Assembly (NCBI GenBank): GCA_013001885.1
Contig: JABDLD010000087.1
Location: 1-64,000 of the forward strand
Source of the DNA: Lysobacterales bacterium
Lineage (GTDB): Bacteria > Pseudomonadota > Gammaproteobacteria > Xanthomonadales > SZUA-36
Length of the DNA stretch: 64,000 nt
Reading direction: 5' to 3'
A model generated the notes under the pieces. It had not been told where the DNA came from. It ran no database searches and was given only the letters and a program-made list of their open reading frames with translations. A program made the translations under genes and the position numbers. This document shows positions 7,673-61,388 of this stretch, one piece after another (the first letter of the stretch is position 1; the number at the start of each line of letters is the position of its first letter).

Positions 7673-7690
7673 GTGGGCAATCATACGCCT

Positions 7691-7722
7691 AAAAAAAAGG
7701 GCCGGTACAGCCGGCCCTTTTT
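7691..7722 (-). terminator. Rho-independent terminator after the TonB receptor gene
   Basis: A perfect 7-bp GC stem (GGGCCGG/CCGGCCC, loop of 5) is extended by A-T pairs and followed, reading the minus strand, by a run of eight T. It lies 18 bases past the receptor stop codon and ends only 18 bases before the adaptor start codon. It is T-rich on both strands. Confidence 0.85.
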
Positions 7723-7740
7723 CCTGTAAACAAGGCGATT

Positions 7741-9993: not shown

Positions 9994-10031
9994 TTTAAAC
10001 CGCCGGTGATTGTTGTTGTTTGGAAGAGCAG

Positions 10032-10040
10032 TTTATATCA
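10032..10040 (-). promoter_or_regulatory. Possible extended -10 promoter for the TonB receptor
   Basis: On the minus strand the sequence reads TGATATAAA, an extended -10 element (TGn followed by TATAAA), about 40 bases upstream of the receptor start. No convincing -35 box is seen, as allowed for extended -10 promoters. The rest of the 255-base gap to dbpA shows no gene. Confidence 0.35.
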
Positions 10041-10248
10041 CAACCCGAGTCCGGCATGCCACGCGTCATCTATTATTTTCCGGGGCACGGCTGCTCAGGT
10101 CCGCGTCGGTTTAAGCCGTCCTCGGATCATGCGACAATGGCCCAGCTTCCGTATTTTCGAGCCGGTTTGAAAGCAAGGCAATCAAATAAGACCGACTGAT
10201 TGACGAAGGGGCCGCCGCCGGCATCGCACTTAGAACAGGACTCACTCA

Positions 10249-20527: not shown

Positions 20528-23500
20528 TTACGGCTTATAGCCGACAAGAGTAACCGCGCCAAATTCATCACTCACAATAAGCGGTAACGAACATGAACCG
20601 TGGAACTTGATTGTCTGCAGCACCGTTTCGCCATTCGTACTTTTGACCACGATTTTGATATTGGGCGGAATCTTTCCGCTGTTGGTCCAGAAACCCTGGA
20701 CGTACATCTGGTAACCAATCGTGACACCAACATGAGTCTCCTCAAGCTGGTCTTTGTCATACAGTTCAACGATTACCGGTGATACAGGTATCAGGCCCGT
20801 GCCGTCAGGAACGCCAACGAAACCCTGCGCATTGTTGCTTTCATAAGTCCCGTTATATTCCAGTGTCAGGCGGGTCGGGCGACCTGAAGTTTCGCAAATA
20901 TCCACCGCTTCACCACAAAGGAGAGTGGCGCTGTCGCTATCACCCGCTGTGCCGTAAGGCCACTCGACAGAGGTGCCCTCGGCCGTGGCCGTATTCACGT
21001 AGGTGCCCGCAGACGTGCAGCGGTTCACTCGGAACAACTCTGAAATCTCCCCATCCGACAACACAACCGTCTGGTTCATCGCAAGGTAACCGACCGGGTA
21101 ATCAACGATCCCGAGGGTCGTGTCATTGACGACCACTCCGTCGAGATCTGTCGTGCCGGTGTTGGTAACAGTCAGGCGATACAGCGCGTCCCTGGGTGGT
21201 AACAGCGAAGGCGTAGAGCCCGAATACCAGGTAATACCGCCATCGACGCTGATGTCCTTCGCAATCTGGATATCGGGCGTACCCGTGCATTCCAGCCAGG
21301 CTTCGTCGGAGTCCGTGCTGATGGAGCCGGTATCGGCGGACTCGCCGGAAACGTTGACCGTATTGCCGAAAGTGCCTTTACCGGTGCAACGGCCAGGGTA
21401 ATAAAGTTCGCTGATTTCACCGCTGGCCAGCACTACTTGCTGACCGGAGGCGATGTCGCCCACCGGATAATCGAAAATACCCAGTGTTCCGTCGCTCATT
21501 GAAACGTTGGTCAAATCCACCGGGCCATTATTTTTCACGGTAATGCGATACCAGGCATTGGACGGCGCCTGCGTCGTCAATGCATCGCCCTCACTATCTG
21601 CGGGGAAGAAATTCACATTATCGACACTGATGTCTTTAAACACTTGGATCAGCGGTGCGCCCACGCACAGCAGATTAGCCGAATCGCTGTCATCCACCGT
21701 GTCACTCGGATCATCAACCGAACTGCCGGAAACGGACGCGACGTTACCCACCGTGCCAGCGCCAACGCATCGGTCCTCCTGATAGAGTTCGGCCACCTGG
21801 CCGGACTCCAGCACGACACTCTGGTTAACCGCGAGATTCCCGATGAACTGGCCGGCCAACAGGTCGCCGTCCACCATATCGACGTTTTCAAGCGGCGTCG
21901 TGCCGTCGTTGGTTACCGTGATCCGGTACCAGGCATCACTGGGCCACTCCTGCGGTGGCGTAATGTCGTCATACCAGGGGTCACCTCCGGTCAGGCTAAT
22001 CTCCTTGACGATCGTGATGTGGGGCTCACCGATGCATTTGAGCACGGCGGCGTCATTATCACTTGCCGGTGTACCGTTCTCGGCTGACACGCCGGAAGCC
22101 GTTGCGGTGTTGGTAAACGTTCCACGCCCGGCGCAACGCTCGGCAACAAACAACAAGGGCTCCTCAACACTAGTGATCACGACGGTTTGGTTAACCGCCA
22201 GATTTCCAATAAAGTACTCGTTGACGCCCGTGATACCCAGCTCGGCATCATCAATGACCACGTCTTCCAGCGAAGCGGTGCCGTTATTGGTCACCGTAAA
22301 GCGATAGAGTGCATCGCTCGGGAAAACGGCGACGGCGGCGGAGCCGATATCGTTCGCATCAGACCAGTTGAGACCGCCATCAATGCTGATTTCCTTGACG
22401 ATCACAATACTGGGTGCTCCCGTGCCAAAGTAATGGCTCGGGTCGGTATCTGTCACCGGCGTTCCGACCGGCGGGGTGCCGGTGGCCGTGCCGATGTTGG
22501 CGTATTGGCCGGCCACTGCGATGCCGCTGGCCGTACAGGTCATCGAGGCGCCAGCGGCCAGTGTATCGGACGGACACGTCACCGTGACACCCTGGTCATC
22601 GGTCACGCCGACAGCGGTCAATGCCACATTCGAGTTATTGGTCACCACGTAGGTCCAGCTAACGGCGTCGCCAACCGGGATCTGCGGGCCAGCAGGTGCA
22701 TCGGCGTCCTCTCCGTTGGTGGCTTTCTCGATATCAATCGCCGCCGTCACACCAAAGTAGTGGCTTGGATCCATATCCGTCACCGGCGTTCCGACCGGCG
22801 GGGTGCCGGTGGCCGTGCCGATGTTGGCGTATTGGCCGGCCACGGCGGTGCCGCTGGCCGTGCAGGTCATCGAGGCGCCGGCGGCCAGTGTGTCGGACGG
22901 ACATGTGACCGTGACACCCTGGTCGTCGGTGACCGTGACGTCACTAAGAGTTTCATTAGAGCCATTCGTGACCACATACGTCCAGGTCACTGCATCACCT
23001 GATGGAATCTGCGGGCCAGGCGCCGCATCGGCATCGAGGCCATTAGTGGCTTTCTCGATGGTAATGCTGGACGCCACGCCGAAATAATGACTGGGATCGC
23101 TGTCACTGACATTTCCGCCCGCGCTGGATGCGTTGACGGTGCCGACGTTGCTGTATTGGCCGGCTAGGGCCGTGCCGCTGCCGGTGCAGGTCATCGAGGC
23201 GCCAACGGCCAGTGTGTCAGAAGGGCAACTGACCGCTACACCCTGATCATCAGAGACTGCAACACCGGTTAACGGCAACTCACCGTCATTGGTCACAACG
23301 TAAGTCCAGGCCACTGCGTTGCCTACAGGAATTTGCGGACCGGTCGGCTCATCAGCATCAAAACCGTTGGTGGCTTTTTCAATATCAACGGAAGGGGTGC
23401 CGTTGCATACCAGGTAGGCGCTGTTCTCAGCACTCGAGGTAATTCCTGGGTCCCCGACTCGGCAAACGGCGCTTGCACTGGCCGTGTTTTCCAGATTGCC

Positions 23501-47691: not shown

Positions 47692-48708
47692 TCAGCGGCT
47701 GATAACGTGCATTTGCCAGAGGTCTTTACGCTCGATCTGCAAAAACGGTTTCATCGCCAGGCAACCGGTTTTTCCAATACTCTTTTCGAGGAAATGCAGT
47801 TCTTCAAATTTTTCCCGGGTGCGTTCACCTACAGGCAGTTCGATTCCGTTCTCCCGCGCTATCAATGCCGCCTTCGCGCGGATGGCAAGCTCGGTATACA
47901 CACGCAGGTAGCACAGCATGTCCACCAGGACAGGACCTTCGAACTTACCGCGTAAATCGTCGAGGAACTGACCAATTTTCGATTCGGTAAACTGTCCCGA
48001 TTCGATCATTTCAATCAGGTTTGCATCGGCATCGAAGTCCAGTTCTAGCCAGTCATGCAGGGCTTTTGAACTCCGCTGGAAAACCAGCTGAAGCAAGGGC
48101 GGCAGGATAAACAGAGTCCCGATGGTTTGCAGCACCGGCGCCACCAGGAAGTGGTTGAATACGGAATGCAGTAAGACAGCAACCGCCAGGCCCGGCAGGT
48201 AGAACAGCGGATTAATCCTCATTTGGCGCTCGGTGAGCGTCTGCGACATAATCGCAAAAATCGCCACGACACCGCCGTGCATGATTGCAGTGCCGAATCC
48301 CCGCACGATCCAGACGCCGAAGCTGGCCGTTGAATAGATTTGCAGGTATTGAAAATTTTCGACCAGCGCAAAGCCTGCGCCGACTGCGAAACCCATAATG
48401 GCTGAATCAACCAGGAAGCCTATCCGGTTAGTACGAAAAAGGTACACAATGATCAGCGCTTTGAGGCCTTCTTCGACAAATGGCGCCACGTATCGGGAAT
48501 ACGGTTTGAGCGGCATATCCAGCACACCCAGCAACCAGCCGTTGATATACATGGCTGCAACGGCTGTAAGCCCGCCCATGAATATCACTGCCAGCACATT
48601 TTTTAGACTGACCAGCTTGTAGCTGTCCATGTAGACCAGCACAACCAGGAAAATAAGGACTGGCAGCAGTCCCACCGGAGCCCTAGCCAGAAAATCTATT
48701 GAAAACAT
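47692..48708 (-). CDS. PrsW family intramembrane metalloprotease
   Basis: A 338-residue membrane protein with about eight helices in the first 215 residues and a soluble C-terminal tail (about 220-338). The PrsW motifs are PFVEEGLKAL (EExxK, residues 79-83), FALVENFQY (E117), IMHGG (H144) and LLHSVFNHF (H181, H186). In Bacillus, PrsW cleaves an anti-sigma factor; relatives here could cleave another membrane substrate. The start codon overlaps the stop of the large metallopeptidase/propeller gene by one base (TAATG), so the two are coupled. The extra C-terminal domain has no recognised motif. Confidence 0.88.
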   Translation of the reverse strand: MFSIDFLARAPVGLLPVLIFLVVLVYMDSYKLVSLKNVLAVIFMGGLTAVAAMYINGWLLGVLDMPLKPYSRYVAPFVEEGLKALIIVYLFRTNRIGFLVDSAIMGFAVGAGFALVENFQYLQIYSTASFGVWIVRGFGTAIMHGGVVAIFAIMSQTLTERQMRINPLFYLPGLAVAVLLHSVFNHFLVAPVLQTIGTLFILPPLLQLVFQRSSKALHDWLELDFDADANLIEMIESGQFTESKIGQFLDDLRGKFEGPVLVDMLCYLRVYTELAIRAKAALIARENGIELPVGERTREKFEELHFLEKSIGKTGCLAMKPFLQIERKDLWQMHVISR

Positions 48709-51662
48709 TACAGAATTTTAAGCGAAATCATCCACTCTGTGTCGTACTTGTCACCATCGATATAGCCCTGGGCATAACCGAACGACAGCCTCATCGGATA
48801 ACGATGCACTACCGTGAAATGAAAGTCGGCCTGCGCCCCCACGCTGTAATACGTCTCCTTGTAGCGACTGTTCCCCAAATCGGTAACCAGGGCGCCTGCA
48901 AACAGCGCTGCGCGAACCCACGTCAGGTAGAAACTCGGCGTGCCCACTTCCCTGAACGTAAGCGGCGGCAGGTTCCACTCCATCACCGATTTGGCGAAGT
49001 CCTGGCCGTCGATTGAGTCAATATCAAAACCCGGGAAACTGTAGAAGCTCCGATAGCGTTTTACTTCTCCGTCATCCACATAGTTGTTACCAAAACTGCC
49101 GAAATACCAGTTAGCCAGTGAATTGTCCCGGTCTCCACCGGAGAGGCCGGCAGAGTTGTAAAACCAGATTGAAGAATGCTTGATTGGCAATGCAAAACCA
49201 AAGTCAAATCCTGCCCGGATTTTTGGAACAAAGGCGCTGTCTGCATAATCTGCATAGCCCACCAGGTCCCAGCCGATCCCTTTCTCATAGTCAACTGCGC
49301 CCAGAGACACCCTTTTATTCGAGTAGTTCAGCTTGGCGCGGGCGGATGCAAGTCGCGCAAACGATGTCGGAACGTTCTGGTTGTTCGGCAGCGTATCGAG
49401 GCCGGTATAGTAAGCCGCGTCAAGATCCAGACTCATGTTGCGCGGTCCGTCGAAAATCAAAGATTTGGTGTGTCCTACGATAAAGGCATCACCCTTGCGG
49501 GCACGCTCGGTGGGGCCGAAAAGATCGTAGAAGTCCGCGTAGTTGTGCCAATAGCGAAACCGCCAGTTCAGCGCCTTGTATTCGATGTCCGCGTGCAGAC
49601 GCTCACTGGAATCAAGAGAACTGTCGGGACTGAAAGAAGCATTGATCGTCAGGCTGTTCAATCCGACCGGATCCCGAATATTGAGGCTGTAACCCAACGC
49701 AAACGTGTCACGATAACCCTGGATAATCGGGTATCCAGAAGACACCTTAAGTTCCTTTCGTGGAATATATTTGCCGCGGTTGGTGACTAGGTCATCAAGC
49801 GGAACTTTCATCGGTGAACCCACTGCCCAATCGCGCACAATCGGATGTTTTTTCGCTATCTCCGACCCCAGGAAGGTAATGGCGCTGAGATCCTCCAGCG
49901 GGACCGGATCAATAATCGAAGGAACGAAGCCTTCGCCGGTAAAATCGTAAACCAGCAACGATCCATCATCCAGCGGAAGCGGCCTGAAAAATCCGGTTTC
50001 AGCGTTGCTCACGGCTTCCAGATCACCCGTTTCGATTTCGTAACGGAAGATGTTCGAAACACCTGTGTAGTAGGAACTTCCATACAGGTAACGGTCATCC
50101 TGAGAGAAAACGAAGCCTTCGGGAACTGCTGCACCGACGTTGAACTCGGCCATGGGTTTAGCTTGCTGATTTCGCAAATCCTCGGCCCGGAATACCCTGA
50201 GATACTGATTGCCGGTGACTTCGCCCATTGAAGCGGAAATCAACTTGCCATCATGGGAAACATCCATTTCATAGAGGACTTGTCCATATTCCCAGGTGAA
50301 GACCTGGTTCCATTCTTCATAGGGATACGGAATGTTCACCAGTGTCACGTAACCGTTCAGATGCCTCAGACCCCAAAGCGAGCGATCCGATGGGTCGAAT
50401 ACAAGTTCACCGATTCGCGCGTCTTTCAGCAGCATGCGCCGCTTGCCCGTCTCCAGATCGATGGCCACAACGTCACGGAAATCAGAATTATCCTCTGTAT
50501 AAAAAAGTGTTCTGCTTTCCGGATCAAAGGCGGTGGAAGTGACGCGGTACAACATCGGTCCTTTGACATCCCTCAACCGGTCGATACTGCCGTCCTCCAA
50601 CGACATCATACCGACATGTCCGACGACGCCAGGATAGCGGAAAGCGCCCACCAGGTTCTTCGTCTCCGGATCGATGAAGGAACGAGATGCAGAACCCACG
50701 CCACGATCGACGAGCCTGCGCGCGGGAGTCAATGGCTGTGCTCTGACTGCCTCCAGATTAGCCTGCTGAAATTGATGCTCCCATTCAATCCATTCGTCCC
50801 AGGCATCTTCAAGCGACAAACCAAAAACGGCACGAAACTGACTCGCATAGTAGCGCTCGCTGTCTTCGTTTCTGCTCAACCATTCAATGACCTTTTCAGG
50901 TGAATACAGGTAGGCCATGTATCCGAAAAAACGGGTTCCGTAGAGATAAGCATTCACGCCAACCAGAAAATCCACTTTTGTCCCTTCAGACACCAGGCCC
51001 AGGTTGCTGTAAAAATGTGCATCATCCCGCACCATTGCGCGGAACACCATTTCATCGAATGCGCCCTGCGACCGGCCAAGACCGCCAGCCATCCAGGTTT
51101 CCATGAATACCGCGCTGCCTTCGGCATACCAGCGCGGGTTTGCATCCCTGGGGCTTGCCAGATAGGCATAGAGTATTGACTCCGGATGTTCCTGCACAGG
51201 CGCTGGTTTGCCGAGAAACACCCGCCGCCACCAGGCATCCTGTTCATTCCACACGTCATTGGTCGCGATGTGAACCATCTCGTGGTTCAGTAACATGTAT
51301 ACGCGTTCGCTGGCGGGGAACGTTTCGTGGGTGCGGCTTAATGGCGCGACTTCGATCTGAACGAAATTATTGGGGACGACCCCTGCTGCGGCGTTTCCGT
51401 AGTCGGTGAAGTCCGTCAGGAGAACCGTGGTTTTCTCCCATGGTTGCCAATTGAATATATATTTTTGGAATTCGAGTGAATTATGGAAACTGCGAGCCAC
51501 GTGTGGCGTCAGGTAAGTCTGCATTGGGTCAAAGTAAAGTAACCGCAGATCATCGGTCTCCAACACATCGAGCGCGAATGGTGCCGCGAATGTATTGGTA
51601 ACCGCAATCAGTGCGCATACCAGCATCGAGAATTTTGATGTTCCGCTTCTCATTCTGACCAT
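48708..51662 (-). CDS. Outer-membrane metallopeptidase with beta-propeller and C-terminal beta-barrel
   Basis: A 984-residue exported protein. After a signal peptide (about 1-27) comes a gluzincin-type peptidase domain: HEMVH at 127-131 and WYAEGSAVFME with a probable third ligand E181. A TolB/WD40-like propeller follows (about 320-620, repeated D-x-x-S/G-R and YEIETGDLE motifs). The last third (about 640-984) has alternating aromatic strands such as LNWRFRYWHNYADFYDLFG and ends TEWMISLKIL, like an outer-membrane barrel. The whole looks like a surface-exposed or periplasm-facing protease fixed in the outer membrane. The substrate is unknown. It is followed by the PrsW gene with a one-base overlap. 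A start three codons later is possible. Confidence 0.82.
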   Translation of the reverse strand: MVRMRSGTSKFSMLVCALIAVTNTFAAPFALDVLETDDLRLLYFDPMQTYLTPHVARSFHNSLEFQKYIFNWQPWEKTTVLLTDFTDYGNAAAGVVPNNFVQIEVAPLSRTHETFPASERVYMLLNHEMVHIATNDVWNEQDAWWRRVFLGKPAPVQEHPESILYAYLASPRDANPRWYAEGSAVFMETWMAGGLGRSQGAFDEMVFRAMVRDDAHFYSNLGLVSEGTKVDFLVGVNAYLYGTRFFGYMAYLYSPEKVIEWLSRNEDSERYYASQFRAVFGLSLEDAWDEWIEWEHQFQQANLEAVRAQPLTPARRLVDRGVGSASRSFIDPETKNLVGAFRYPGVVGHVGMMSLEDGSIDRLRDVKGPMLYRVTSTAFDPESRTLFYTEDNSDFRDVVAIDLETGKRRMLLKDARIGELVFDPSDRSLWGLRHLNGYVTLVNIPYPYEEWNQVFTWEYGQVLYEMDVSHDGKLISASMGEVTGNQYLRVFRAEDLRNQQAKPMAEFNVGAAVPEGFVFSQDDRYLYGSSYYTGVSNIFRYEIETGDLEAVSNAETGFFRPLPLDDGSLLVYDFTGEGFVPSIIDPVPLEDLSAITFLGSEIAKKHPIVRDWAVGSPMKVPLDDLVTNRGKYIPRKELKVSSGYPIIQGYRDTFALGYSLNIRDPVGLNSLTINASFSPDSSLDSSERLHADIEYKALNWRFRYWHNYADFYDLFGPTERARKGDAFIVGHTKSLIFDGPRNMSLDLDAAYYTGLDTLPNNQNVPTSFARLASARAKLNYSNKRVSLGAVDYEKGIGWDLVGYADYADSAFVPKIRAGFDFGFALPIKHSSIWFYNSAGLSGGDRDNSLANWYFGSFGNNYVDDGEVKRYRSFYSFPGFDIDSIDGQDFAKSVMEWNLPPLTFREVGTPSFYLTWVRAALFAGALVTDLGNSRYKETYYSVGAQADFHFTVVHRYPMRLSFGYAQGYIDGDKYDTEWMISLKIL

Positions 51663-51721
51663 TCCGGGATTCCCTCACTCAGGCACGCCAACAAGCATAT
51701 AGCTTTTGGATTAAATAACCT

Positions 51722-51751
51722 AAAAAAAAGCCGCCTGTCTGAGCAGGCGGC
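51722..51751 (-). terminator. Rho-independent terminator after the nonapeptide-repeat gene
   Basis: An 8-bp stem GCCGCCTG/CAGGCGGC with loop TCTGAG, followed on the minus strand by eight T. It lies 35 bases beyond the stop codon of the repeat protein and marks the end of the six-gene minus-strand locus. Confidence 0.92.
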
Positions 51752-51786
51752 CAATAACAAGTAAAGACTAATTGTGCATTGCAGCG

Positions 51787-53169
51787 CTATTGCTTCATCG
51801 CTCTCGCATTAACTGCATTGTTCAGAGATTGACGGAAGCTGGCGCTGTTGAGCGCACTGCGAAAGTTCGCGTTATTCAGCGCACTGCGAAAGTTCGCATC
51901 GTTCATTGCACTGCGGAAGCCCGCATTATTAAGCGCACTGCGGAAGTTCGCGTCGCTCAGCGCACTGCGGAAGTTCGCGTCGTTCAGCGCACTGCGGAAG
52001 TTCGCGTCATTCAATGCGCTCCGGAAGTTCGCGTCATTCATTGCATTGCGGAAGTTCGCGTCATTCAGCGCGCTGCGGAAGTTCGCACTGCTCAGCGCCT
52101 GGCGGAAGCCCGCATCGTTCAGCGCACTGCGGAAGTTCGCATCGTTCAGCGCCTGGCGGAAGCCCGCATCGTTCAATGCACTGCGGAAGTTCGCGTCATT
52201 CAATGCGCTACGGAAGTTCGCGTCGTTCAACGCATTGTGGAAGTTGACGTTGTCCAGCGCACTGCGGAAGTTCGCATCATTCAGCGCCTGGCGGAAGTTC
52301 GCGTCGTTCAGTGCCTGGCGGAAGTTCGCGTCGTTCAGCGCCTGGCGGAAGCTCGCGTTGTTGTTCAGCGCATTGTTCAAGCTGCTGTCGTTCAGCGCAC
52401 TGCGCAAGTTCGCGTCGTTCATTGCACTGCGGAAGCCCGCGTCATTCAGCGCCTGGCGGAAGTTAGCGTTATTCAACGCACTGCGGAAGTTTGCATCACT
52501 CAGCGCATTACGGAAATTCGCATCGTTCAACGCCTGGCGAAAACCCGCATCGTTCAATGCACTGCGGAAGCCTGCGTCGTTCAGTGCGTTGCGGAAATTT
52601 GCGTCATTCAGCGCGTTACGGAAGCCCGCGTCGCTCAGTGCATTGTGGAAATTCACATTGTCCATTGCACTGCGAAAGCCCGCATCATTCAGCGCATTGC
52701 GGAAGTTCGCGTCGCTCATTGCGCTGCGGAAACTCGCGTCATTCATTGCGCTGCGGAAGTTCGCGTCATTCATCGCACTACGAAAGTTCACGTTGTTCAA
52801 GGCATTGAGAAAATTCGCGTCGCTCATCGCGCTGCGGAAATTCGCGTCGTTCAACGCATTGCGGAAGTTCGCATTATTCAATGAATCCTGGACCGCCGAA
52901 CTGGTGAGCACATCGATCAGATCGGGATTGTTCACCAGGTACTCGAAAGTGTCGGTCTGCACGAACTGAGCAATCGATTCGTCGCCAAGCACTACGTCTT
53001 CGTTGCTGATCTGGTCAGAACGATAACGCTCTGCCGGAACGATGGTGCCAGCCGCATTTTCATCGCCTGGCGGATAGTCATTCGCAAAAAACATGATCCC
53101 ACCGGCGACCACTACCAGTGCGCCGATTAGCATGTATACCTTGGTACTGCCTTGCTGTGTAAATTTCAT
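51787..53169 (-). CDS. Membrane-anchored nonapeptide-repeat protein (novel)
   Basis: A 460-residue protein that I do not recognise. One N-terminal helix (about 11-29, VYMLIGALVVVAGGIMFFA) anchors it, with the rest most likely in the periplasm. After a short acidic linker (30-72), the protein is built of nine-residue units to its end. Three are degenerate (73-99); 39 clear ones (100-451) fit A-[NG]-F-R-[SNQ]-A-[LM]-[NS]-[DN], with one unit a residue longer; a degenerate tail AVNARAMKQ ends it. Phe at 3, Ala at 6 and Leu/Met at 7 are nearly fixed; no cysteine occurs. The regular period suggests a solenoid or long helical rod. It is last in a locus with an ECF sigma/anti-sigma pair and a partner-switching module, 32 bases after the anti-sigma gene, and ends at a strong terminator. 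Confidence 0.88.
   Translation of the reverse strand: MKFTQQGSTKVYMLIGALVVVAGGIMFFANDYPPGDENAAGTIVPAERYRSDQISNEDVVLGDESIAQFVQTDTFEYLVNNPDLIDVLTSSAVQDSLNNANFRNALNDANFRSAMSDANFLNALNNVNFRSAMNDANFRSAMNDASFRSAMSDANFRNALNDAGFRSAMDNVNFHNALSDAGFRNALNDANFRNALNDAGFRSALNDAGFRQALNDANFRNALSDANFRSALNNANFRQALNDAGFRSAMNDANLRSALNDSSLNNALNNNASFRQALNDANFRQALNDANFRQALNDANFRSALDNVNFHNALNDANFRSALNDANFRSALNDAGFRQALNDANFRSALNDAGFRQALSSANFRSALNDANFRNAMNDANFRSALNDANFRSALNDANFRSALSDANFRSALNNAGFRSAMNDANFRSALNNANFRSALNSASFRQSLNNAVNARAMKQ
51817..52872 (-). repeat. Tandem 27-bp repeat array (39 units)
   Basis: The array is 1056 bp of in-frame 27-bp units coding for the consensus ANFRSALND; one unit has an extra codon. The units are similar but not identical, and variation is concentrated at codons 2, 5, 7 and 8. 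Because 27 is a multiple of 3 and the units lack stops in several frames, long spurious open frames appear on the opposite strand. Confidence 0.95.
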
Positions 53170-53201: not shown

Positions 53202-53987
53202 TCAACCTCGAAGCGCGCCTGTCACTACAGGAGCCCCTCCGCTGGAAACAACCACATTGATCTCCCTGCCGGCATTGCCATTTTCGGCCACCCTGCGCAG
53301 AAACACCGTAAACGCCTGCCGTCCCTGGTTTACAACACGCAGAGCCCCCCCCGCGACTTCATAGGATTGATCGGTTTCTTCAGTGCCGATCACCGCATGC
53401 GCAATTCCGCCGAAACCCAGGCCGGCTTCGGCGAAATCAACCTCGATTTCAATCGGATCATCGGAATCGAGGTCAAATTCGAGTGTAAAATAGTCGTTGC
53501 CGGTCTGAAGAGACACGGTGCCTGTCACTCCCTTCTCGGCAATTGAAAAAATGTCTGTCTGTTCACCGCTAAGTCCCTCTGGATTGGCCACCATGGTTCC
53601 AACCATCCCGGCAGTATCCAGACCGGTGTTGCCGGGCTGCGACAGTTCGTAGAATGAAATAGTGGCCAGCAAACCGGCAGCAAACGCTACTCCGGCCGTG
53701 GCGGGTTGGAACGAGGAAAACCAACCGGCCAGGGAAAACCTGGTTTTCGACGCCTGCGGCAACAGTTGCTGCATGATTTTTGTAGAAAGGTCGGAAGGCG
53801 GTTGCATAGCGGGCTGATTGTCGAGCAGATTACTTAATCTGAGCAATTCCGACCGCATCGCTCGTGCCTCCTCAGAAACTTCCAGGGTGGCATCTAGCTC
53901 CTGCGACTCTTCCGGCGTTAGTTCGCCATCGATGTCGGCGTTGATCAGGTCAAGCGTGTGTTCGTCAAGCATCGGCATTTTCCTCAA
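53202..53987 (-). CDS. Membrane-spanning anti-sigma factor (zinc-less)
   Basis: A 261-residue protein encoded directly after the ECF sigma gene, overlapping it by 4 bases (ATGA), which is the usual sigma/anti-sigma layout. The N-terminal part (about 8-60, LDLINADIDGELTPEESQEL) matches the anti-sigma helical domain but lacks the His-x3-Cys-x2-Cys zinc motif. One membrane helix lies at about 96-115, and a beta-rich periplasmic domain (about 140-261) is rich in Asp, Glu and Gly. It should hold the sigma factor inactive at the membrane until an envelope signal is received. The fourth codon is also a possible start. Confidence 0.87.
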   Translation of the reverse strand: MRKMPMLDEHTLDLINADIDGELTPEESQELDATLEVSEEARAMRSELLRLSNLLDNQPAMQPPSDLSTKIMQQLLPQASKTRFSLAGWFSSFQPATAGVAFAAGLLATISFYELSQPGNTGLDTAGMVGTMVANPEGLSGEQTDIFSIAEKGVTGTVSLQTGNDYFTLEFDLDSDDPIEIEVDFAEAGLGFGGIAHAVIGTEETDQSYEVAGGALRVVNQGRQAFTVFLRRVAENGNAGREINVVVSSGGAPVVTGALRG

Positions 53988-54526
53988 TACACGCCCCGGG
54001 ACTGCAGCATTTCTTTCATGATCTGCCGTGCCGAGTACAGCCGTGATTTGACCGTTTTTTCCGGAATCTCGAGAATTTCACTGATTTGCCGGTAACTGCA
54101 TTCCGAAAAATGCCTTAGAACAACCACGGTGCGATAGTCCTCTGTCAATTTCATCAATCCGCCCTGTATTTCCCGCGACAGGTCACCTGCCTCGACGCTT
54201 GCGTCCGGACCGCGGGTGCCGGCAACTTCAGAGTCGTCCAGAGGCTGCTGGTTTTTGCCGCGCTTGAATAGATTGATGGCCTCATTTATTGCAATCCTGT
54301 AAATCCAACTGAAAAACCTGTACCTGGGATCGTATTTATCCAGGTGCTCGAAAGCTTTCATGAACACCACCTGCGTTGTATCAGCGGCGTCATCCGGATT
54401 TCCCAGAATCCGGTAAGCGGCGTTATAAACGGGCTTTTGATACAACCCAACCAGCTTCTCGAGCGCTTCCCGGTCACCTTGCTTACATCGTTTGATGAGG
54501 GCCTGGTCCCGGTCATTACTGTTCAT
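53984..54526 (-). CDS. ECF-type (RpoE-like) RNA polymerase sigma factor
   Basis: A 180-residue extracytoplasmic-function sigma factor with region 2 (about 25-95: VYNAAYRILGNPDDAADTTQ and YRFFSWIYRIAINEAINLF) and region 4 (about 125-178: YRTVVVLRHFSECSYRQISE then IPEKTVKSRLYSARQIM). No C-terminal extension is present. It would direct transcription of an envelope-related regulon, probably including its own locus. The adjacent anti-sigma gene overlaps it. Upstream, 48 bases separate it from the STAS gene with no terminator, so it may be read from the partner-switching promoter, its own promoter, or both. Confidence 0.93.
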   Translation of the reverse strand: MNSNDRDQALIKRCKQGDREALEKLVGLYQKPVYNAAYRILGNPDDAADTTQVVFMKAFEHLDKYDPRYRFFSWIYRIAINEAINLFKRGKNQQPLDDSEVAGTRGPDASVEAGDLSREIQGGLMKLTEDYRTVVVLRHFSECSYRQISEILEIPEKTVKSRLYSARQIMKEMLQSRGVY

Positions 54527-54574: not shown

Positions 54575-54865
54575 TCATAGAGTGGTAATTGAAAACAGTT
54601 TATCGAACCCAGAATAGCGGAATATATCAGCTATATGCTTGTTAACATTAATTAATTCCAGACCAGCCTCACTGCTCATCAAACGCTTGTGGGTTCGCAG
54701 CAGCACACCAAGCCCCGCACTCGAAATGTATTCCAGTTCCGCCATATCAATAACGCAGCCGTGTTCAACGCGGTCGAGAAATTCCTGCGCCGCGGCCGAC
54801 TGGGCCGCATCCAGCCGGCCGCTTACTGCTACCTGGCCCTCACTGTTAAAGCTAATTTCAAACAT
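54575..54865 (-). CDS. STAS domain anti-sigma factor antagonist (RsbV/SpoIIAA-like)
   Basis: A single 96-residue STAS domain. The loop EYISSAGLGVLLRTHKRL contains the serine expected to be phosphorylated (S49 by alignment with RsbV). In partner switching, the unphosphorylated protein binds the cognate kinase and frees its target; phosphorylation reverses this. It sits 8 bases after the kinase gene and 48 bases before the ECF sigma gene. Target in this organism is unknown. Confidence 0.92.
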   Translation of the reverse strand: MFEISFNSEGQVAVSGRLDAAQSAAAQEFLDRVEHGCVIDMAELEYISSAGLGVLLRTHKRLMSSEAGLELINVNKHIADIFRYSGFDKLFSITTL

Positions 54866-54873
54866 CCTTTTAC

Positions 54874-55284
54874 CTACTCCCCCGCAACCCTGTTGGTGAA
54901 CGTAATTTTGCTCTTCCGGTCGTGGTATTGATAGTTTATTGAATCCGCCATTTTTAAGACCAGGTAAAGCCCAAGTCCACCGGGGTCCCGCTCCGACAAG
55001 GGCGCATCGATGTCCACATCCGCAGCCCGGGTAGGATCGAATCTCTCCACATCGAAGTCTGTCAGGCTGACCTCGATACCCCGCTCGATCGGATGCATTT
55101 CAACCAGGATATCCTTATCAGTCTCGGTGTTGTAACTCACCATGTTGACGAATAGCTCCTCCAACGACAGATCCACCTTCATGCGCAGAGAACCATCGAT
55201 CTGTTCCCGTTCAAAAAAGTCTTCAGTATCCCGAACGATCTTCTGGATCTGATCAAAATTTCGGCTGTATTTTTTATGCATCAA
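54874..55284 (-). CDS. RsbW/SpoIIAB-like serine kinase (HATPase)
   Basis: A 136-residue GHKL-type ATPase. The N box is SLEELFVNMVSYN, the G1-like segment is SLTDFDVERFDP and the G2 box is ERDPGGLGLYLVLKMAD. Proteins of this type phosphorylate a STAS antagonist and bind a sigma factor or other output. The gene overlaps the phosphatase gene by 4 bases (ATGA) and precedes the STAS gene, making a three-gene partner-switching cassette. Whether its second partner is the neighbouring ECF sigma factor, its anti-sigma factor, or a distant protein is unknown. Confidence 0.9.
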   Translation of the reverse strand: MMHKKYSRNFDQIQKIVRDTEDFFEREQIDGSLRMKVDLSLEELFVNMVSYNTETDKDILVEMHPIERGIEVSLTDFDVERFDPTRAADVDIDAPLSERDPGGLGLYLVLKMADSINYQYHDRKSKITFTNRVAGE

Positions 55285-56558
55285 CTCTCCTCCGGAAGCC
55301 GTTTTAGCAGGACCAGCGTTATGTCGTCCTGCTGAGCGACACCATCTCCGTGTTCGTAAGTTGCAGTCAATATCTGTTTGCTCAACTCCACCATCGGTAA
55401 ACGGTGATGATACTTCATCAGGCTGGCAACACGATCCTCGCCAAACTGCACACCCTGCCTGCTCTCATATTCATAAATTCCATCGGATAACAGGACCAGG
55501 ACGTCACCAGGCTCCATTTTCAAAATCTGTGAATCACCCGTATCCTCCAACTCCATGATGCCAACCGGAAATGTTGTCGGCCGATGCCACTCACAGCTTT
55601 CGTCTGCGGCCCGGAAATGCAGGATCGGGCCCTGACCCCCGGAATGAAACCGGACTTCACTGGTGACCGGATCGAGAAAACCCATGAAAGCCGTGATGAA
55701 GCGATCGTCCGGCAAGTCTTCCACGAGCTGGTTGTTCACGTGTCTGAAAGCCTCATTGAGCGACGCCCCGCAACGGAATGCGACGCGCAACATAGCCTGC
55801 ATCTGAGTGGCCGACAGGGCCGGCCCGAAACCATGGCCTGTGGCGTCGCCCATCAGGACAAACAATTCCCGGTTAAGCACAACCAGGTCGAACAGGTCAC
55901 CGCCTGCGTGCCCGGTAGGCACGAAGTGGCCATGAACATCGTAACCTTTCACCAGCGGCATGACAGTGGGCAGCGTGCTCATCTGGATTTCGCGGGCCAG
56001 CGCAACCTCCTCGTCCAGCCTCTCTTTCAGCAGCAGCGCCTCGGTGAGCTGTGTACGCTGCACCGCCACGGCACATTGCGCCGCGAGCGTTGACGCCAGC
56101 AATTCATCGCTGGCATCGAAGACGCCCCCAATTTTATTCAGCAACTGCAGCACACCAACAGGCTGCTTCTCCTCTCCCAGCAGGGGAATGTTCAGGACGG
56201 ACTGTGTTTTGTAACCGATGGCCTTGTCGACGGTCCGGCTGAATCGCGGATCGGAATAGGCGTCGGAAACGTTGATAATTTCACGCGTCGACAGGCACTC
56301 GCCTACGAGGCCCTCACCTGCCGCCAGCCGGGGAGCGGGCCTGAACACCGGCACCCGCATGGTCAGATCGTCATTGGCGGCGTCGTACAGCCACAAAGAG
56401 GCCTTATCTGCGGAAAGGACAGATTCGCCGGCTTCGACCACTTCGGTCAGCATTTGCAGAAGTTCAAAAGGCCGTGCCAGTTTCTGCGTGACGTCCAGAA
56501 TGCGGGCCAGCGCATCCTGGCTCAGCCGAGGCGGTGAAATCGCCTGAGAATTAGTCAA
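55281..56558 (-). CDS. GAF domain PP2C phosphatase (RsbU/SpoIIE-type)
   Basis: A 425-residue cytoplasmic phosphatase with an N-terminal GAF sensor (about 25-175, SLWLYDAANDDLTMRV then IPLLGEEKQPVGVLQLLNK), a short coiled linker (about 175-200, ALLLKERLDEEVALAREIQ) and a SpoIIE/PP2C domain (about 205-422) with metal-binding acids in HAGGDLFDLVVL, MGDATGHGFGPAL, LLSDGIYEYESR and AQQDDITLVLL. It should dephosphorylate the STAS antagonist encoded two genes downstream in response to a ligand or redox signal sensed by GAF. First gene of the minus-strand regulatory locus; divergent from the peroxiredoxin gene. Confidence 0.93.
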   Translation of the reverse strand: MTNSQAISPPRLSQDALARILDVTQKLARPFELLQMLTEVVEAGESVLSADKASLWLYDAANDDLTMRVPVFRPAPRLAAGEGLVGECLSTREIINVSDAYSDPRFSRTVDKAIGYKTQSVLNIPLLGEEKQPVGVLQLLNKIGGVFDASDELLASTLAAQCAVAVQRTQLTEALLLKERLDEEVALAREIQMSTLPTVMPLVKGYDVHGHFVPTGHAGGDLFDLVVLNRELFVLMGDATGHGFGPALSATQMQAMLRVAFRCGASLNEAFRHVNNQLVEDLPDDRFITAFMGFLDPVTSEVRFHSGGQGPILHFRAADESCEWHRPTTFPVGIMELEDTGDSQILKMEPGDVLVLLSDGIYEYESRQGVQFGEDRVASLMKYHHRLPMVELSKQILTATYEHGDGVAQQDDITLVLLKRLPEES

Positions 56559-56717: not shown

Positions 56718-57254
56718 ATGTCCCAGATTATTCCATTGCAAGTTCCCCACGTTACATTCAAAACCCGCGTGCATGATGAATCCGTGGAAGGGCCAAACCC
56801 CTACCGCTGGCAGGACCTGACCTCCGACGACATTTTCGCCGGAAAAAAAGTGGTCGTGTTTGCGCTTCCAGGTGCCTTCACCCCGACCTGTTCAAGCACG
56901 CATCTGCCCGGTTTCGAAGCCAGCTACGAGGAGTTCAAGGCTCTCGGCGTCGACGAAGTTTATTGTCTCAGCGTTAACGACGCGTTCACAATGTTTCAGT
57001 GGGGCAAACACCAGGGCGTCGAGAAAGTCAAAATGCTACCGGATGGCGGTGGCGAATTCACCCGGATGATGGGCATGCTGGTGCGCAAGGACAATCTCGG
57101 TTTCGGCGAACGGTCGTGGCGCTACTCCATGCTGGTCGACGACGGCGCGATTACCGCCATGTTCGCAGAGGCTGGGAAGTGTGATAACTGTCCGAGTGAC
57201 CCGTTCGAGACCAGTGATGCACAGACGCTTCTGAATTACATGAAATCAAATTAG
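56718..57254 (+). CDS. Peroxiredoxin (PRX5-type, glutathione/glutaredoxin-dependent)
   Basis: A 178-residue atypical peroxiredoxin that reduces hydrogen peroxide and organic peroxides. The active-site motif is ALPGAFTPTCSSTHLPGF with the peroxidatic cysteine; the SVNDAFTMFQWGK segment is also typical. Two further cysteines near the C-terminus (AGKCDNCPSDPFETSDAQ) fit the bacterial PRX5 subgroup, which uses glutathione or glutaredoxin as reductant. In some species a glutaredoxin domain is fused, but not here. The ribosome site is AGGAGA, 6 bases before the ATG. Confidence 0.93.
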   Translation: MSQIIPLQVPHVTFKTRVHDESVEGPNPYRWQDLTSDDIFAGKKVVVFALPGAFTPTCSSTHLPGFEASYEEFKALGVDEVYCLSVNDAFTMFQWGKHQGVEKVKMLPDGGGEFTRMMGMLVRKDNLGFGERSWRYSMLVDDGAITAMFAEAGKCDNCPSDPFETSDAQTLLNYMKSN

Positions 57255-57317
57255 AACTTAAACGGTCTTTTATTATCATACTCTAGGGAGGGATAAAGCC
57301 TTCAGGAGATTTGATTT

Positions 57318-57989
57318 ATGAACTCAAAAGTCATTGGCGTACTGTTTAGCCTCGGCCTGATTCTGGGCCCCTCGATTGTTTTCGCGGAAACCGACCCTCC
57401 GGAAATTTCCCTGGATGGCCTGGAATTGATGGAAAAGGACCGCCGAGGTGAAATATATGCGAGTCCGGATGTGGAATGGAGCATATACGACCAGATCTTG
57501 CTGGACCCTGCCACTGTGGCCTTCCGTAAAAACTGGCAACGTGACCAAAATCGCTACCATTCGCTGAAGGTCAAGGCCTCAGACATGGAGCGGATCAAGT
57601 CCGATATGGCTGATCTGTTTAACGAGGTTTTCGTAGCGGAACTTACTGCCGCAGGCGATTACACATTGGCCAGCGAGAGTGCCGAAAACGTGATGCGAAT
57701 CAAACCCCGCATCGTCGACCTCGACGTCTACGCCCCGGACACCCGCTCCGTTGGCATAACACAGACCTACACCGAGTCTGCCGGACGTATGACGCTCAAG
57801 CTTGAACTCTACGACGCAGTGACCGGTGATCTGCTCGCTACCGCGTCCGACCGGCAGGAGGCGCCGCGCCGCGGCTATTACCAGTGGACCAACAGCGTAA
57901 GTAACCGCGCGGATGCGCGTCGGATGCTGCAGCGGTGGGCCAAAGACCTGCACCAGCGGCTGGACGAGGCTCGATCTGATTCCGACTGA
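57318..57989 (+). CDS. DUF3313 family exported protein
   Basis: A 223-residue exported protein (signal peptide cleaved near VFA-ETD). The segment YASPDVEWSIYDQILLDPAT and the later KPRIVDLDVYAPD are characteristic of DUF3313, a family of periplasmic or lipoprotein-like proteins of unknown function. There is no lipobox cysteine here, unlike many relatives. The ribosome site is CAGGAG, 10 bases before the ATG. It follows the peroxiredoxin gene by 63 bases and may share its transcript. Confidence 0.82.
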   Translation: MNSKVIGVLFSLGLILGPSIVFAETDPPEISLDGLELMEKDRRGEIYASPDVEWSIYDQILLDPATVAFRKNWQRDQNRYHSLKVKASDMERIKSDMADLFNEVFVAELTAAGDYTLASESAENVMRIKPRIVDLDVYAPDTRSVGITQTYTESAGRMTLKLELYDAVTGDLLATASDRQEAPRRGYYQWTNSVSNRADARRMLQRWAKDLHQRLDEARSDSD

Positions 57990-58030: not shown

Positions 58031-61000
58031 TTACTGAGAGCTCCACTCGGGCAGACGCGCCGGGGTCCATGGGGCGCCCTCCGCTTCCAGTTCGTTTTCG
58101 AGCTGCACCAGGTCAGCAGAAATGGAACTCAACTCCGCCAGCACCGGCGGGAACTGCTCCGTCGCAACACGATATGATTCTCTAAAATTCCCGCTCACGG
58201 CGGACTGGCTTCCCCAACTGCCCCCTACAATAACGGCGACGCGTTCGAAGATGGACTGAGGCGCAGCTTCGGCGCGGCTCGTCACCGTCCTGTCACCGTT
58301 CAGAATCACTCGCAGGTCCTGCATCCTGGCATTCAATCTTCGCACGGCGGTCGCTTGCGCCTCTGTCGCGGCAGGCGTTTCTTCCACGGCTTTCACGAGG
58401 TGGTCAATGCGCGTCTGGATCTCATCTGCAGCACGATCGGCACCCATCACGGCACGATAGAGCTCCGCTGTCTGCGACTGGAATTGCAGCACGGCTTCGC
58501 GGTCATCTGCAACCAGGCCGCCGGTGAACAGGGGTTTCAGGGTAAACGTCTGCGCCCCGGCGATTTCCTCAAATTTGCCCTCTACCCTTTTCGAGAGGGT
58601 CACGCTGTATTGACCCGGCAGCACCATGGGCCCCTGGGGCGTGCCCTCCCAGGGCGCACGATCGGTCGCCGGCTGCAAATTCACGGGATCAGGAGCAGGG
58701 TAACGCATATCCCATGCCACCCGGTGAAAACCCTTACCGGCGGGACCGTCAATGCGCCTGATGACCTGACCCGACCTATCCGTCACTGTCAGTGTTACTG
58801 AAGGCGCCTCTTCGCGATCTTCACGTCTCAGCTGCTCCCAGCTGGGATACGGATTGTCCTCTCCCGCCTTGGCCCTCTCCTTCTCGGAGTCCCGGCGCTT
58901 ATCCTTGATTGACTGAAGGTCTTCGGCCAGATAGTAGGAGAACACGGCCCCATAAGGCGGGTTGTCGGCGGTATAACGGTCGGAACCGAAATCGCCCTTT
59001 CCGCCCCAGCCGCGACGTCGGTCGGGGTTGTAGATCCAGCTGTCACGGACCGGAAACAGGGAAGCGCCCGACTCGAGTTGCTTGACCGGGGTACGCAAAG
59101 GCGCAATGTCGTCGAGAATATAAAAGCCCCGCCCAAAGGTAGTTACGACCAGGTCGCTCTCGCGGCGCTGAATTTCCAGATCGCGGACGGCGATGGTCGG
59201 CAAGCCCGTCAACTCCTGCCAGTTCCCGCCTCCGTCCTGGGTGAAAAACAGGCCGAATTCGGTGCCGACAAACAGCAGTCCGCTGTTTACATGGTCCTCG
59301 ATAATGGTATGCGCCGTGCCTCTGGGCGGTAGACCGTCAACCATCATTTTCCAATTTTTTCCCCGGTCCGATGTTTTCACCACATAGGGTTTGTGGTCAC
59401 CGCGTTTGTGGTTGTCAAACACCGCGTATGCCACGTCAGCATCATGGCTCGAGGCAATGATGTCCTCGACCAACGACATATCGGGAACGCCCTTGAAAGA
59501 TGCCGTCTTGCGCCAGCTATTTCCGCCGTCCGTTGTCACCTGGATCAGACCGTCGTCGGTCCCGGCGTAGATAAGCCCCTCGGTCAGCGGGCTTTCAGCC
59601 AATGCAATCAGGCTCCCGTACATCGAAGTGGACATATTCTTGGCGATGGCGTCGACGCTCCATACCCTGCCCATCACGTCGAGTTTGTTACGGTCAATCT
59701 GCCGGGACAGATCGCCGCTGACAGCGACCCAGCTTTCACCACGGTCATCCGAGCGGAACAGGCGTTCTGCCCCGTAATACAGACGGTTACTGTTGTGCGG
59801 TGAAATGATCAGGGGCGCATTCCAGTTCCACTTGTACTTGTTTTCCTCCGCGCCCGGCTGCGGCGTGATGGCCAACCTCTCACCGGTCACCCGGTCAAAC
59901 CGGGCCAGGCCGCCGTATTGATATTGCGCGTAAACGACATTTGCATCGGTCGGATCGATCTGAGCCTTAAACCCGTCTCCGAACTGGGCTATCCACCAGT
60001 CGACATTGGTGATTCCGTCGGTAAAACGGGTCTGGACAGGACCGCAAAGCGTGAAATTGTCCTGCGTTCCACCACATACGTTGTAAAACGGCGCGTCGTT
60101 ATCCGGCGTACCCCGGTAAAACTGCGTCATCGGCAGGTTGCTGACATGGCGCCAGTTTTCTCCGCGATCCCAGGATTCATAGACACCACCGTCTCCGCCA
60201 ATATACAGATGGTTGCTGTTGGCTGGATCAATCCAAAGGGCATGATCATCGACGTGCCGGTTCTTGATGGAAATCCTGCTCCAGGTTTTACCGCCATCCT
60301 CCGACCGGCTGGTGAAAGTGTCCACCGAGTAAACCACATCCGGGTCATTCGGATCGACGTACAGCTCGTTGTAATACTGGGGACTGCTGGTCATCCGGTC
60401 AGAACGCTTCTCCCAGCTTTCACCAAAATCGGTGCTGCGATAGACACCTTTGCCTTTGTCGTCGGCTTCAATGATGGCGTAAAGAATGTTTGGCGCCGAT
60501 GGGGCCGCCGCAAGGCCGATACGTCCCAGGTCTCCTCCCGGTATTCCCTGGCTGATTTTACGCCAGGTTTTACCGCCGTCCACAGTCTTGTGCACTCCGC
60601 CCCCGGGGCCGCCATTGATCAGCGTCCAGACATGACGCCTGCGCTGGTAGCTGGAAGCGACGATGACGTCCGGATTGGCGGAGTGCATGACAAATTCGTT
60701 GACGCCGGTATCTTCATCGATCTCCAGAATCCGGGTCCAGCTCTCGCCGCCATCGATGGTTTTATAGAGACCGCGGTCTCCGCCAGAGTTCCACAGCGGG
60801 CCCTGGGCCGCCACCCAAACTATATTACTGTTCTCGGGGTGAATCCGGATCATCGAGATATGGCCGGAATCTTTCAGGCCCATGTTCTTCCATGTCTTAC
60901 CAGCGTCCATGGATTTGTATACACCGTCACCAAAGGCCACGCTGCGCTGGGCGTTGTTCTCGCCCGTTCCCACCCAGACCGTGCTGGAATTGGAAGGATC

Positions 61001-61297
61001 GAGCTCGACCACGCCGATTGCATAAGAACCTTCGTTTTCAAACACGGCCTCCCAGCTTGCGCCGTTGTTGCCGGTTTTCCAGAGGTTTCCACTGGCGAAA
61101 CCAACGTAATGGACTTCCCACTGGTCGGGATGGAAAGCGAAGTCCGAGACACGGCCCGAGGTCAATGCCGGACCGATGGATCTCATCGGCAGGCCGGCCA
61201 GCGGATGACTCTCATCCGCCGCGGCGATAATGGATGGAAAAGCCGCCAGCAGCAGGAGGGAAAGAACGATGGTTCCGGGCAATCGATTTCGAGACAT
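58031..61297 (-). CDS. Exported BNR/sortilin-type beta-propeller protein
   Basis: A 1088-residue exported protein. After the signal peptide (cleavage near IIA-ADE), many Asp-box (BNR) repeats of the type S-x-D-x-G-x-T-W occur (SMDAGKTWKN, TIDGGESWTR, TVDGGKTWRK, SEDGGKTWSR, TSDRGKNWKM), forming one or two beta-propellers through about residue 700. The C-terminal part (about 780-1088) has a beta-sandwich and a helical, Glu-rich end (LSSISADLVQLENELEAEG). Such proteins are often labelled glycosyl hydrolase or VPS10-like, but no catalytic residues are evident. The start was set at ATG 61297 with AAGGAG 5 bases upstream. It is a paralogue of the protein encoded at 61884. Confidence 0.87.
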   Translation of the reverse strand: MSRNRLPGTIVLSLLLLAAFPSIIAAADESHPLAGLPMRSIGPALTSGRVSDFAFHPDQWEVHYVGFASGNLWKTGNNGASWEAVFENEGSYAIGVVELDPSNSSTVWVGTGENNAQRSVAFGDGVYKSMDAGKTWKNMGLKDSGHISMIRIHPENSNIVWVAAQGPLWNSGGDRGLYKTIDGGESWTRILEIDEDTGVNEFVMHSANPDVIVASSYQRRRHVWTLINGGPGGGVHKTVDGGKTWRKISQGIPGGDLGRIGLAAAPSAPNILYAIIEADDKGKGVYRSTDFGESWEKRSDRMTSSPQYYNELYVDPNDPDVVYSVDTFTSRSEDGGKTWSRISIKNRHVDDHALWIDPANSNHLYIGGDGGVYESWDRGENWRHVSNLPMTQFYRGTPDNDAPFYNVCGGTQDNFTLCGPVQTRFTDGITNVDWWIAQFGDGFKAQIDPTDANVVYAQYQYGGLARFDRVTGERLAITPQPGAEENKYKWNWNAPLIISPHNSNRLYYGAERLFRSDDRGESWVAVSGDLSRQIDRNKLDVMGRVWSVDAIAKNMSTSMYGSLIALAESPLTEGLIYAGTDDGLIQVTTDGGNSWRKTASFKGVPDMSLVEDIIASSHDADVAYAVFDNHKRGDHKPYVVKTSDRGKNWKMMVDGLPPRGTAHTIIEDHVNSGLLFVGTEFGLFFTQDGGGNWQELTGLPTIAVRDLEIQRRESDLVVTTFGRGFYILDDIAPLRTPVKQLESGASLFPVRDSWIYNPDRRRGWGGKGDFGSDRYTADNPPYGAVFSYYLAEDLQSIKDKRRDSEKERAKAGEDNPYPSWEQLRREDREEAPSVTLTVTDRSGQVIRRIDGPAGKGFHRVAWDMRYPAPDPVNLQPATDRAPWEGTPQGPMVLPGQYSVTLSKRVEGKFEEIAGAQTFTLKPLFTGGLVADDREAVLQFQSQTAELYRAVMGADRAADEIQTRIDHLVKAVEETPAATEAQATAVRRLNARMQDLRVILNGDRTVTSRAEAAPQSIFERVAVIVGGSWGSQSAVSGNFRESYRVATEQFPPVLAELSSISADLVQLENELEAEGAPWTPARLPEWSSQ

Positions 61298-61388
61298 GAT
61301 GGCTCCTTGAATAAGCAATATTCAGCACAGCCCCTGCCCGCCTGTCGCTATGCGGACAAAGACCGTTACGCGCTTTTGAACGGGTTCG

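Follow-up and report, generated by a model that had tools for sequence, protein, structure and literature searches.

The window, by which we mean the whole 64,000-nt stretch of Lysobacterales DNA that was analysed, carries on its minus strand a run of eight genes, in the order GAF/PP2C phosphatase, HATPase, STAS, ECF sigma factor, anti-sigma factor, REP, OMPprop and PrsW, so that the gene of the repeat protein REP is part of a conserved operon (Table 1). Divergent from the operon lie a peroxiredoxin gene and a DUF3313 gene (56718-57989), whose place is kept in two related loci (L061 and L064) and which are possible members of the regulon. A 1095-aa Sortilin/Vps10-type BNR-repeat protein is encoded at 58031-61318, and a 327-bp tandem repeat in 2.5 copies is found at 22425-23251.

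Table 1. Features of the REP locus, with coordinates in the window.
Feature	Position	Strand	Description and basis
PrsW-family intramembrane protease	47692..48708	-	PF13367, E 3e-18, above cutoff
OMPprop	48708..51662	-	984 aa; N-terminal HExxH...EGSA.F.ET domain, TolB-like propeller, 16 predicted C-terminal beta strands
Intrinsic terminator	51721..51752	-	right behind REP, ahead of OMPprop
REP CDS	51787..53169	-	460 aa; ORF from ATG at 53169 to stop at 51787; synonymous excess between units
REP array	51820..52872	-	39 nonads, consensus ANFRSALND, extra Asn at residue 271
REP degenerate cap ahead of array	52873..52950	-	residues 74-99, NNPDLIDVL...
REP juxtamembrane core	52951..53049	-	residues 41-73, GTIVPAERYR..Q....DV.LGD...Q..QTD; alignment of relatives
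REP transmembrane helix	53080..53145	-	predicted, ~residues 9-30, N-in/C-out; sequence and AF2 helix 9-30; topology from betaproteobacterial anti-sigma fusion
Anti-sigma factor	53202..53987	-	ZAS-like domain, TM, periplasmic beta-rich domain; putative TTG start
ECF sigma factor	53984..54526	-	closest curated model SigW (PRK09641), E 6e-39, below cutoff
STAS anti-sigma-factor antagonist	54575..54865	-	
HATPase	54874..55284	-	RsbW-like kinase fold
GAF + SpoIIE/PP2C phosphatase	55281..56558	-	RsbU-like

As the preliminary description had proposed, REP turned out to be a membrane-anchored protein made almost wholly of repeats: one N-terminal transmembrane helix is followed by a linker and then by 39 nonads in register, with the single additional Asn separating units 19 and 20. 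The strict nine-residue period claimed earlier is borne out by an identity at lag 9 of 0.66 within the array, whereas 1000 shuffled versions never exceeded 0.22 at any lag. The near-invariance of Phe3 (37/39), Ala6 (38/39) and Leu/Met7 (39/39) likewise holds and extends to Ala1 and Arg4 (35/39 each), which had gone unmentioned, followed by Asn8 (31/39), Asp9 (29/39), Asn2 (27/39) and Ser5 (21/39). Degenerate units had been described on both flanks; they do precede the array, whose C-terminal side is a tail of 10 residues. Translation of the gene, on which that first reading had been made to depend, is very likely, as is constraint on the product, because 65% of the single-base differences among units are synonymous, compared with 21% expected. 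The suggestion that the protein is length-variable through slippage fared less well. The units share ~75% mean DNA identity regardless of their separation and even the commonest unit sequence was seen only once, so that an origin of the array by recent slippage is not supported in this genome, although array length varies widely from species to species.

A related-locus search with the whole REP sequence as query gave no match. A profile of the N-terminal core retrieved 18 loci in public genomes and 16 credible genomes among 398 of the order; the weak core matches in genomes G014 and G022 belong to an unrelated protein. In a whole-genome search, 15 of 61 near genomes turned out to carry REP relatives, a count that includes the genome of the window itself, and the family is patchy, since the gammaproteobacterial core matched only the window's genome in a phylum-wide sample of 398. 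All relatives found by the core profile share the transmembrane helix and the core [SA]GTIVPAERYR..Q....DV.LGD...Q..QTD. The array behind this core differs by relative, with periods of 3, 4, 5, 7, 8, 9 and 10 residues. It consists of nonads (ANADFANLM, RSDAFRDAL, NSEAFRSAM, LRDPAFSGL, SNPLFAEAM), of units of ten (AQHPQAFQAL, AMARNASAFE), eight (SNLNDNVR), seven (GGGMSTN), four (SNAA) or three residues (SDK), or, in Betaproteobacteria, of Gly/Gln/Ser/Ala-rich units (TGQS, NAGGA, GQAA, GQQA, DASTGRAV, GDRGGLNS). The nonad is therefore not essential to the family, since orthologues carry SDK, SNAA or TGQS arrays. An array is present in each orthologue with sufficient sequence, and complete ones measure from ~59 to 495 residues; some lengths are lower limits, the contigs of L029, L032, L034, L070 and L075 starting or stopping within the array, and repeat counts need caution in metagenome assemblies, from which most relatives come.

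The pooled arrays lack Cys and Trp altogether and have next to no Tyr and Ile. Comparison of adjacent units put a rough omega between 0.00 and 0.30 for each of the 29 arrays, a crude count without correction for multiple hits, and the synonymous to non-synonymous counts reached 236:2 in the SNAA array and 71:0 in the AGQA array. Selection for codon variety, which stabilises repeats, could contribute to this excess. With their amino acids conserved in this way, the arrays are not fresh slippage products. In the comparison, which covers one genome per species, the amino acids of the array are, to judge from these sequences, kept within a lineage and the unit is replaced between lineages, amounting to a wholesale exchange of the repeat type between species in which the anchor and the neighbouring genes are retained. 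At L072/L060 (contig C104 of genome G040), a second PrsW gene adjoins a STAS gene and a gene for a short transmembrane protein whose REP-like core has diverged (GTLGGAQK) and which has no array, possibly a repeat-less REP paralogue.

The eight-gene order is kept in all gammaproteobacterial loci read, within the limits of their contigs, and recurs in a Burkholderiales locus and in further betaproteobacterial loci, so that the place of REP in the locus is a direct observation; by its gene order, REP belongs to a cluster of genes that is undescribed and widely conserved. In three alphaproteobacterial loci whose flanks are long, REP-OMPprop-PrsW stands alone. Because the sigma cassette is missing from their surroundings and their genomes yielded no RsbU orthologue, sigma control of REP is not universal. 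OMPprop occurs in 14 of the 398 genomes of the order, and REP is present in 14 of these 14; the two REP genomes lacking OMPprop (G012 and G015) have contigs that stop inside the array. REP and OMPprop are therefore gained and lost as a pair. Directly 3′ of REP and 5′ of OMPprop, a strong hairpin with a T-run was found in 22 of 22 loci with a complete gap, and the other gaps tested in the window showed nothing comparable. This predicted terminator would mean either that REP output exceeds that of OMPprop or that two transcription units meet there. At L119, unlike at the other betaproteobacterial loci, ~1.9 kb of additional sequence (5736-7610) lies between REP and OMPprop.

The window ECF sigma factor has PRK09641 (SigW) as its best NCBIfam match (133.8 bits versus a cutoff of 209), and the window PrsW scores 66.5 bits with PF13367 (cutoff 23.5) and stays short of the equivalog cutoff of NF033739; the curated equivalog levels of SigW and PrsW are thus reached by neither protein. 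The anti-sigma factor matches zf-HC2 (E 0.0078) and anti-sigma models (E ~1e-5), both below cutoff, and has a transmembrane segment in relatives. The helical N-terminal domain of OMPprop, whose model is of poor confidence, contains an HExxH motif at residues 127-131 that is invariant across relatives together with a downstream Glu and reads HEPVH in one of them, and an invariant EG.A...ETW motif; a Pfam scan of the isolated HExxH region gave no useful match. The propeller matches TolB (1crz) in fold with an E of 2e-9, the sequence match being weak. The C-terminus, with 16 predicted beta strands, the ending ...SLKIL and a weak match to Omp85_2, is consistent with an outer-membrane barrel. In one locus (L030 of genome G011, ~7068-10082), OMPprop is interrupted by one in-frame TAG, so that either the gene is broken or the assembly is wrong there.

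Fusions of REP to an anti-sigma domain surfaced only through a survey that started from the Burkholderiales locus (L043). Both the anti-sigma and the REP part of the full query were matched in 14 of 100 related genomes, and a 15th gave a weak match to the anti-sigma part only. In all 12 betaproteobacterial loci read, a single stop-free frame runs from the anti-sigma domain through a linker of 43-49 codons, the transmembrane helix and the core into the array; the naive joint chance of such frames is ~1e-13, a figure that is indicative only, as the genomes are related. The linker evolves fast and no synonymous excess was found in it, so that the case for the fusion rests on the open frame in 12/12 loci and not on selection. 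Pfam and NCBIfam scans of the fusions returned zf-HC2/anti-sigma models only. Since most of these frames have an SD-like sequence ahead of a conserved internal ATG, free REP may also arise, and Betaproteobacteria may make both forms. As read from the frames, nothing speaks more strongly for joint action of REP and the anti-sigma factor than this fusion, which also puts the array in the periplasm. The gammaproteobacterial anti-sigma factor has its own transmembrane segment and periplasmic domain, and REP is therefore not required to anchor it.

The preliminary description had envisaged a protein anchored in the inner membrane whose repeats reach into the periplasm and belong to no described repeat family, and these points agree with what we found; the tension sensing and the span to the wall or outer membrane that it also proposed are conjecture. 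It did not bring up the sigma/anti-sigma operon, the fusion or the wholesale exchange of the repeat type between species. The positive-inside rule suggests an anchor at the inner membrane and a periplasmic array, an orientation that the betaproteobacterial fusion supports, with the cytoplasmic anti-sigma domain ahead of the transmembrane helix. Full-length REP had no genuine family match in Pfam, NCBIfam or the PDB. For Pfam Med31 (PF05669), the sum over the whole protein passes the gathering score and no single stretch does, a low-complexity artefact, as are Pfam LppA and CofH_C and NCBIfam Os1348, again with no passing single stretch. The PDB entry 9e5c (E 1e-6) is a compositional match only, its ALNATETVEATEVAEA repeat being without Phe. 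Units of the NP/DP type may resemble STI1 repeats. An AF2 model built on nine nonad homologues shows the transmembrane helix and then, per nonad, a 7-residue helix and a 2-residue turn, at modest confidence (pLDDT 60-78 across most of the array, pTM 0.42). In searches with the modelled array, the best Foldseek match in the PDB had an E of 0.82, that is, no match, and the best VIA match, a designed repeat fibre, had a Z of 6.9 at an rmsd of 12.3 Å across 268 residues, the VIA scores against designed helical repeats being only middling. The model is suggestive of a new solenoid, of which the absence of a fold match in Foldseek and VIA is no proof. Neither REP nor OMPprop has a name in the curated libraries searched, and no paper describing the locus was found in the openly licensed literature searched.

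In its membrane anti-sigma factor, its PrsW-family gene and an ECF sigma factor closest to SigW among curated models, the locus resembles the SigW-RsiW-PrsW system of B. subtilis, where PrsW cleaves RsiW at site 1 (PMC10202637). It differs in being proteobacterial and in adding REP, an outer-membrane protease/propeller/barrel protein and the RsbU/HATPase/STAS cassette. The betaproteobacterial fusions, as membrane anti-sigma factors bearing a long low-complexity extracytoplasmic arm, recall B. subtilis RsgI, whose disordered extracytoplasmic region is postulated to monitor the integrity of the wall (PMC10128001, PMC11175481). However, their anti-sigma domain and sigma factor are of other families and the Pfam and NCBIfam scans found no RsgI N-terminal domain in them, while the REP arm is a strict tandem array, is Gram-negative, is linked to an outer-membrane protein and is modelled as short helices in Gammaproteobacteria. 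With TolA, REP shares the organization of an inner-membrane-anchored periplasmic arm with an N-terminal transmembrane helix and tandem repeats of variable number, and its partner OMPprop has a propeller like that of TolB, which works with TolA and Pal. Unlike TolA, REP has only 10 residues beyond the array and no C-terminal globular domain III, its neighbours are the RsbU...PrsW genes and not tolQ, tolR or pal, and the propeller is fused to an outer-membrane barrel and an HExxH domain. A tandem period of nine is also found in RTX nonapeptide repeats, but REP is membrane-anchored and predicted to be helical and lacks the GGxGxDxUx calcium-binding motif, Gly being confined to position 2, where 8/39 units have it.

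From this arrangement we infer that the locus is probably a sensor of cell-envelope state, and we give about an even chance to REP being the extracytoplasmic arm of the ECF anti-sigma complex that reaches towards OMPprop and signals via PrsW-type proteolysis. The transmembrane helix and conserved core would sit at the inner membrane, and the array would span the periplasm towards the N-terminal protease/propeller domains of OMPprop in the outer membrane, a link that is plausible because REP is obligately tied to the gene of an outer-membrane barrel. Envelope damage or an altered gap would lead to cleavage of REP/anti-sigma, with the putative OMPprop metallopeptidase and/or PrsW cutting at site 1, and thereby free the ECF sigma factor, to which the GAF/PP2C-HATPase-STAS partner switch would add a cytoplasmic input. 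The array would work through physical properties such as length, stiffness and low interaction and not through a fixed motif, hence the unit could be replaced between lineages while amino-acid changes are disfavoured within a lineage. Tentatively, and with less confidence, we consider that REP might be an envelope gauge bridging the inner membrane and OMPprop, in which the length or mechanics of the array set sigma release; lineages would then repeatedly have rebuilt the arm from unrelated units, which are 3 to 10 residues long and either helical or disordered, with only span or stiffness selected.

Conversely, REP could be the output of the system, an abundant periplasmic spacer or tether like TolA or Lpp, the level of which is set by the sigma factor and which OMPprop and PrsW process or anchor. 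The terminator behind REP suggests more REP than OMPprop, the alphaproteobacterial loci do without the sigma cassette, and stress tolerance in E. coli varies with the number of TolA repeats (PMC3477136); the terminator, however, may merely divide two transcription units, each driven by its own promoter, and the open frame shared by the anti-sigma domain and REP in Betaproteobacteria speaks against a mere output, which we regard as unlikely. It is more doubtful still that the array serves as bait for proteases or chaperones, its exposed repeated peptides occupying envelope proteases such as the putative OMPprop metallopeptidase so that protease load alters the cleavage of REP/anti-sigma. A cleavage motif common to all arrays is absent, and many relatives have Gly/Gln/Ser/Ala-only arrays with no hydrophobic residues, even though two proteases are linked in the locus, the amino acids of the units are conserved within species and gammaproteobacterial nonads are rich in Phe and Leu. 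Threading of the array through the OMPprop barrel for display as a surface fibre, with OMPprop as dedicated transporter, would fit the strict linkage of the two genes, the 16-strand barrel model and the weak Omp85_2 match, but we hold it to be very improbable given the transmembrane anchor without a visible release site, the propeller in front of the barrel where no POTRA domains were seen, and the fusion to a cytoplasmic anti-sigma domain. Although relatives differ completely in array type, we hardly believe in a neutral, functionless low-complexity expansion, against which stand the synonymous excess in 29/29 arrays and the array in every orthologue read far enough. A multicopy precursor of a nonapeptide signal (pheromone), as which species-specific repeated units beside protease genes might be read, can practically be dismissed, as processing sites between units are absent, SDK, SNAA and TGQS orthologues exist and units differ at positions 2, 5, 8 and 9 inside one protein.

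Returning to REP as an arm of the anti-sigma complex, the analysis offers a hypothesis for the function of both REP and OMPprop. The pattern to be explained is one in which orthologues conserve the anchor, the neighbourhood and the residues within each array, yet swap the array itself between unrelated types that differ in period. How Gram-negative bacteria gauge the distance and the connection between their two membranes is a long-standing question, for which this locus presents a testable candidate: an arm of variable length that is fused to an anti-sigma domain in one class and obligately paired with an outer-membrane protein.
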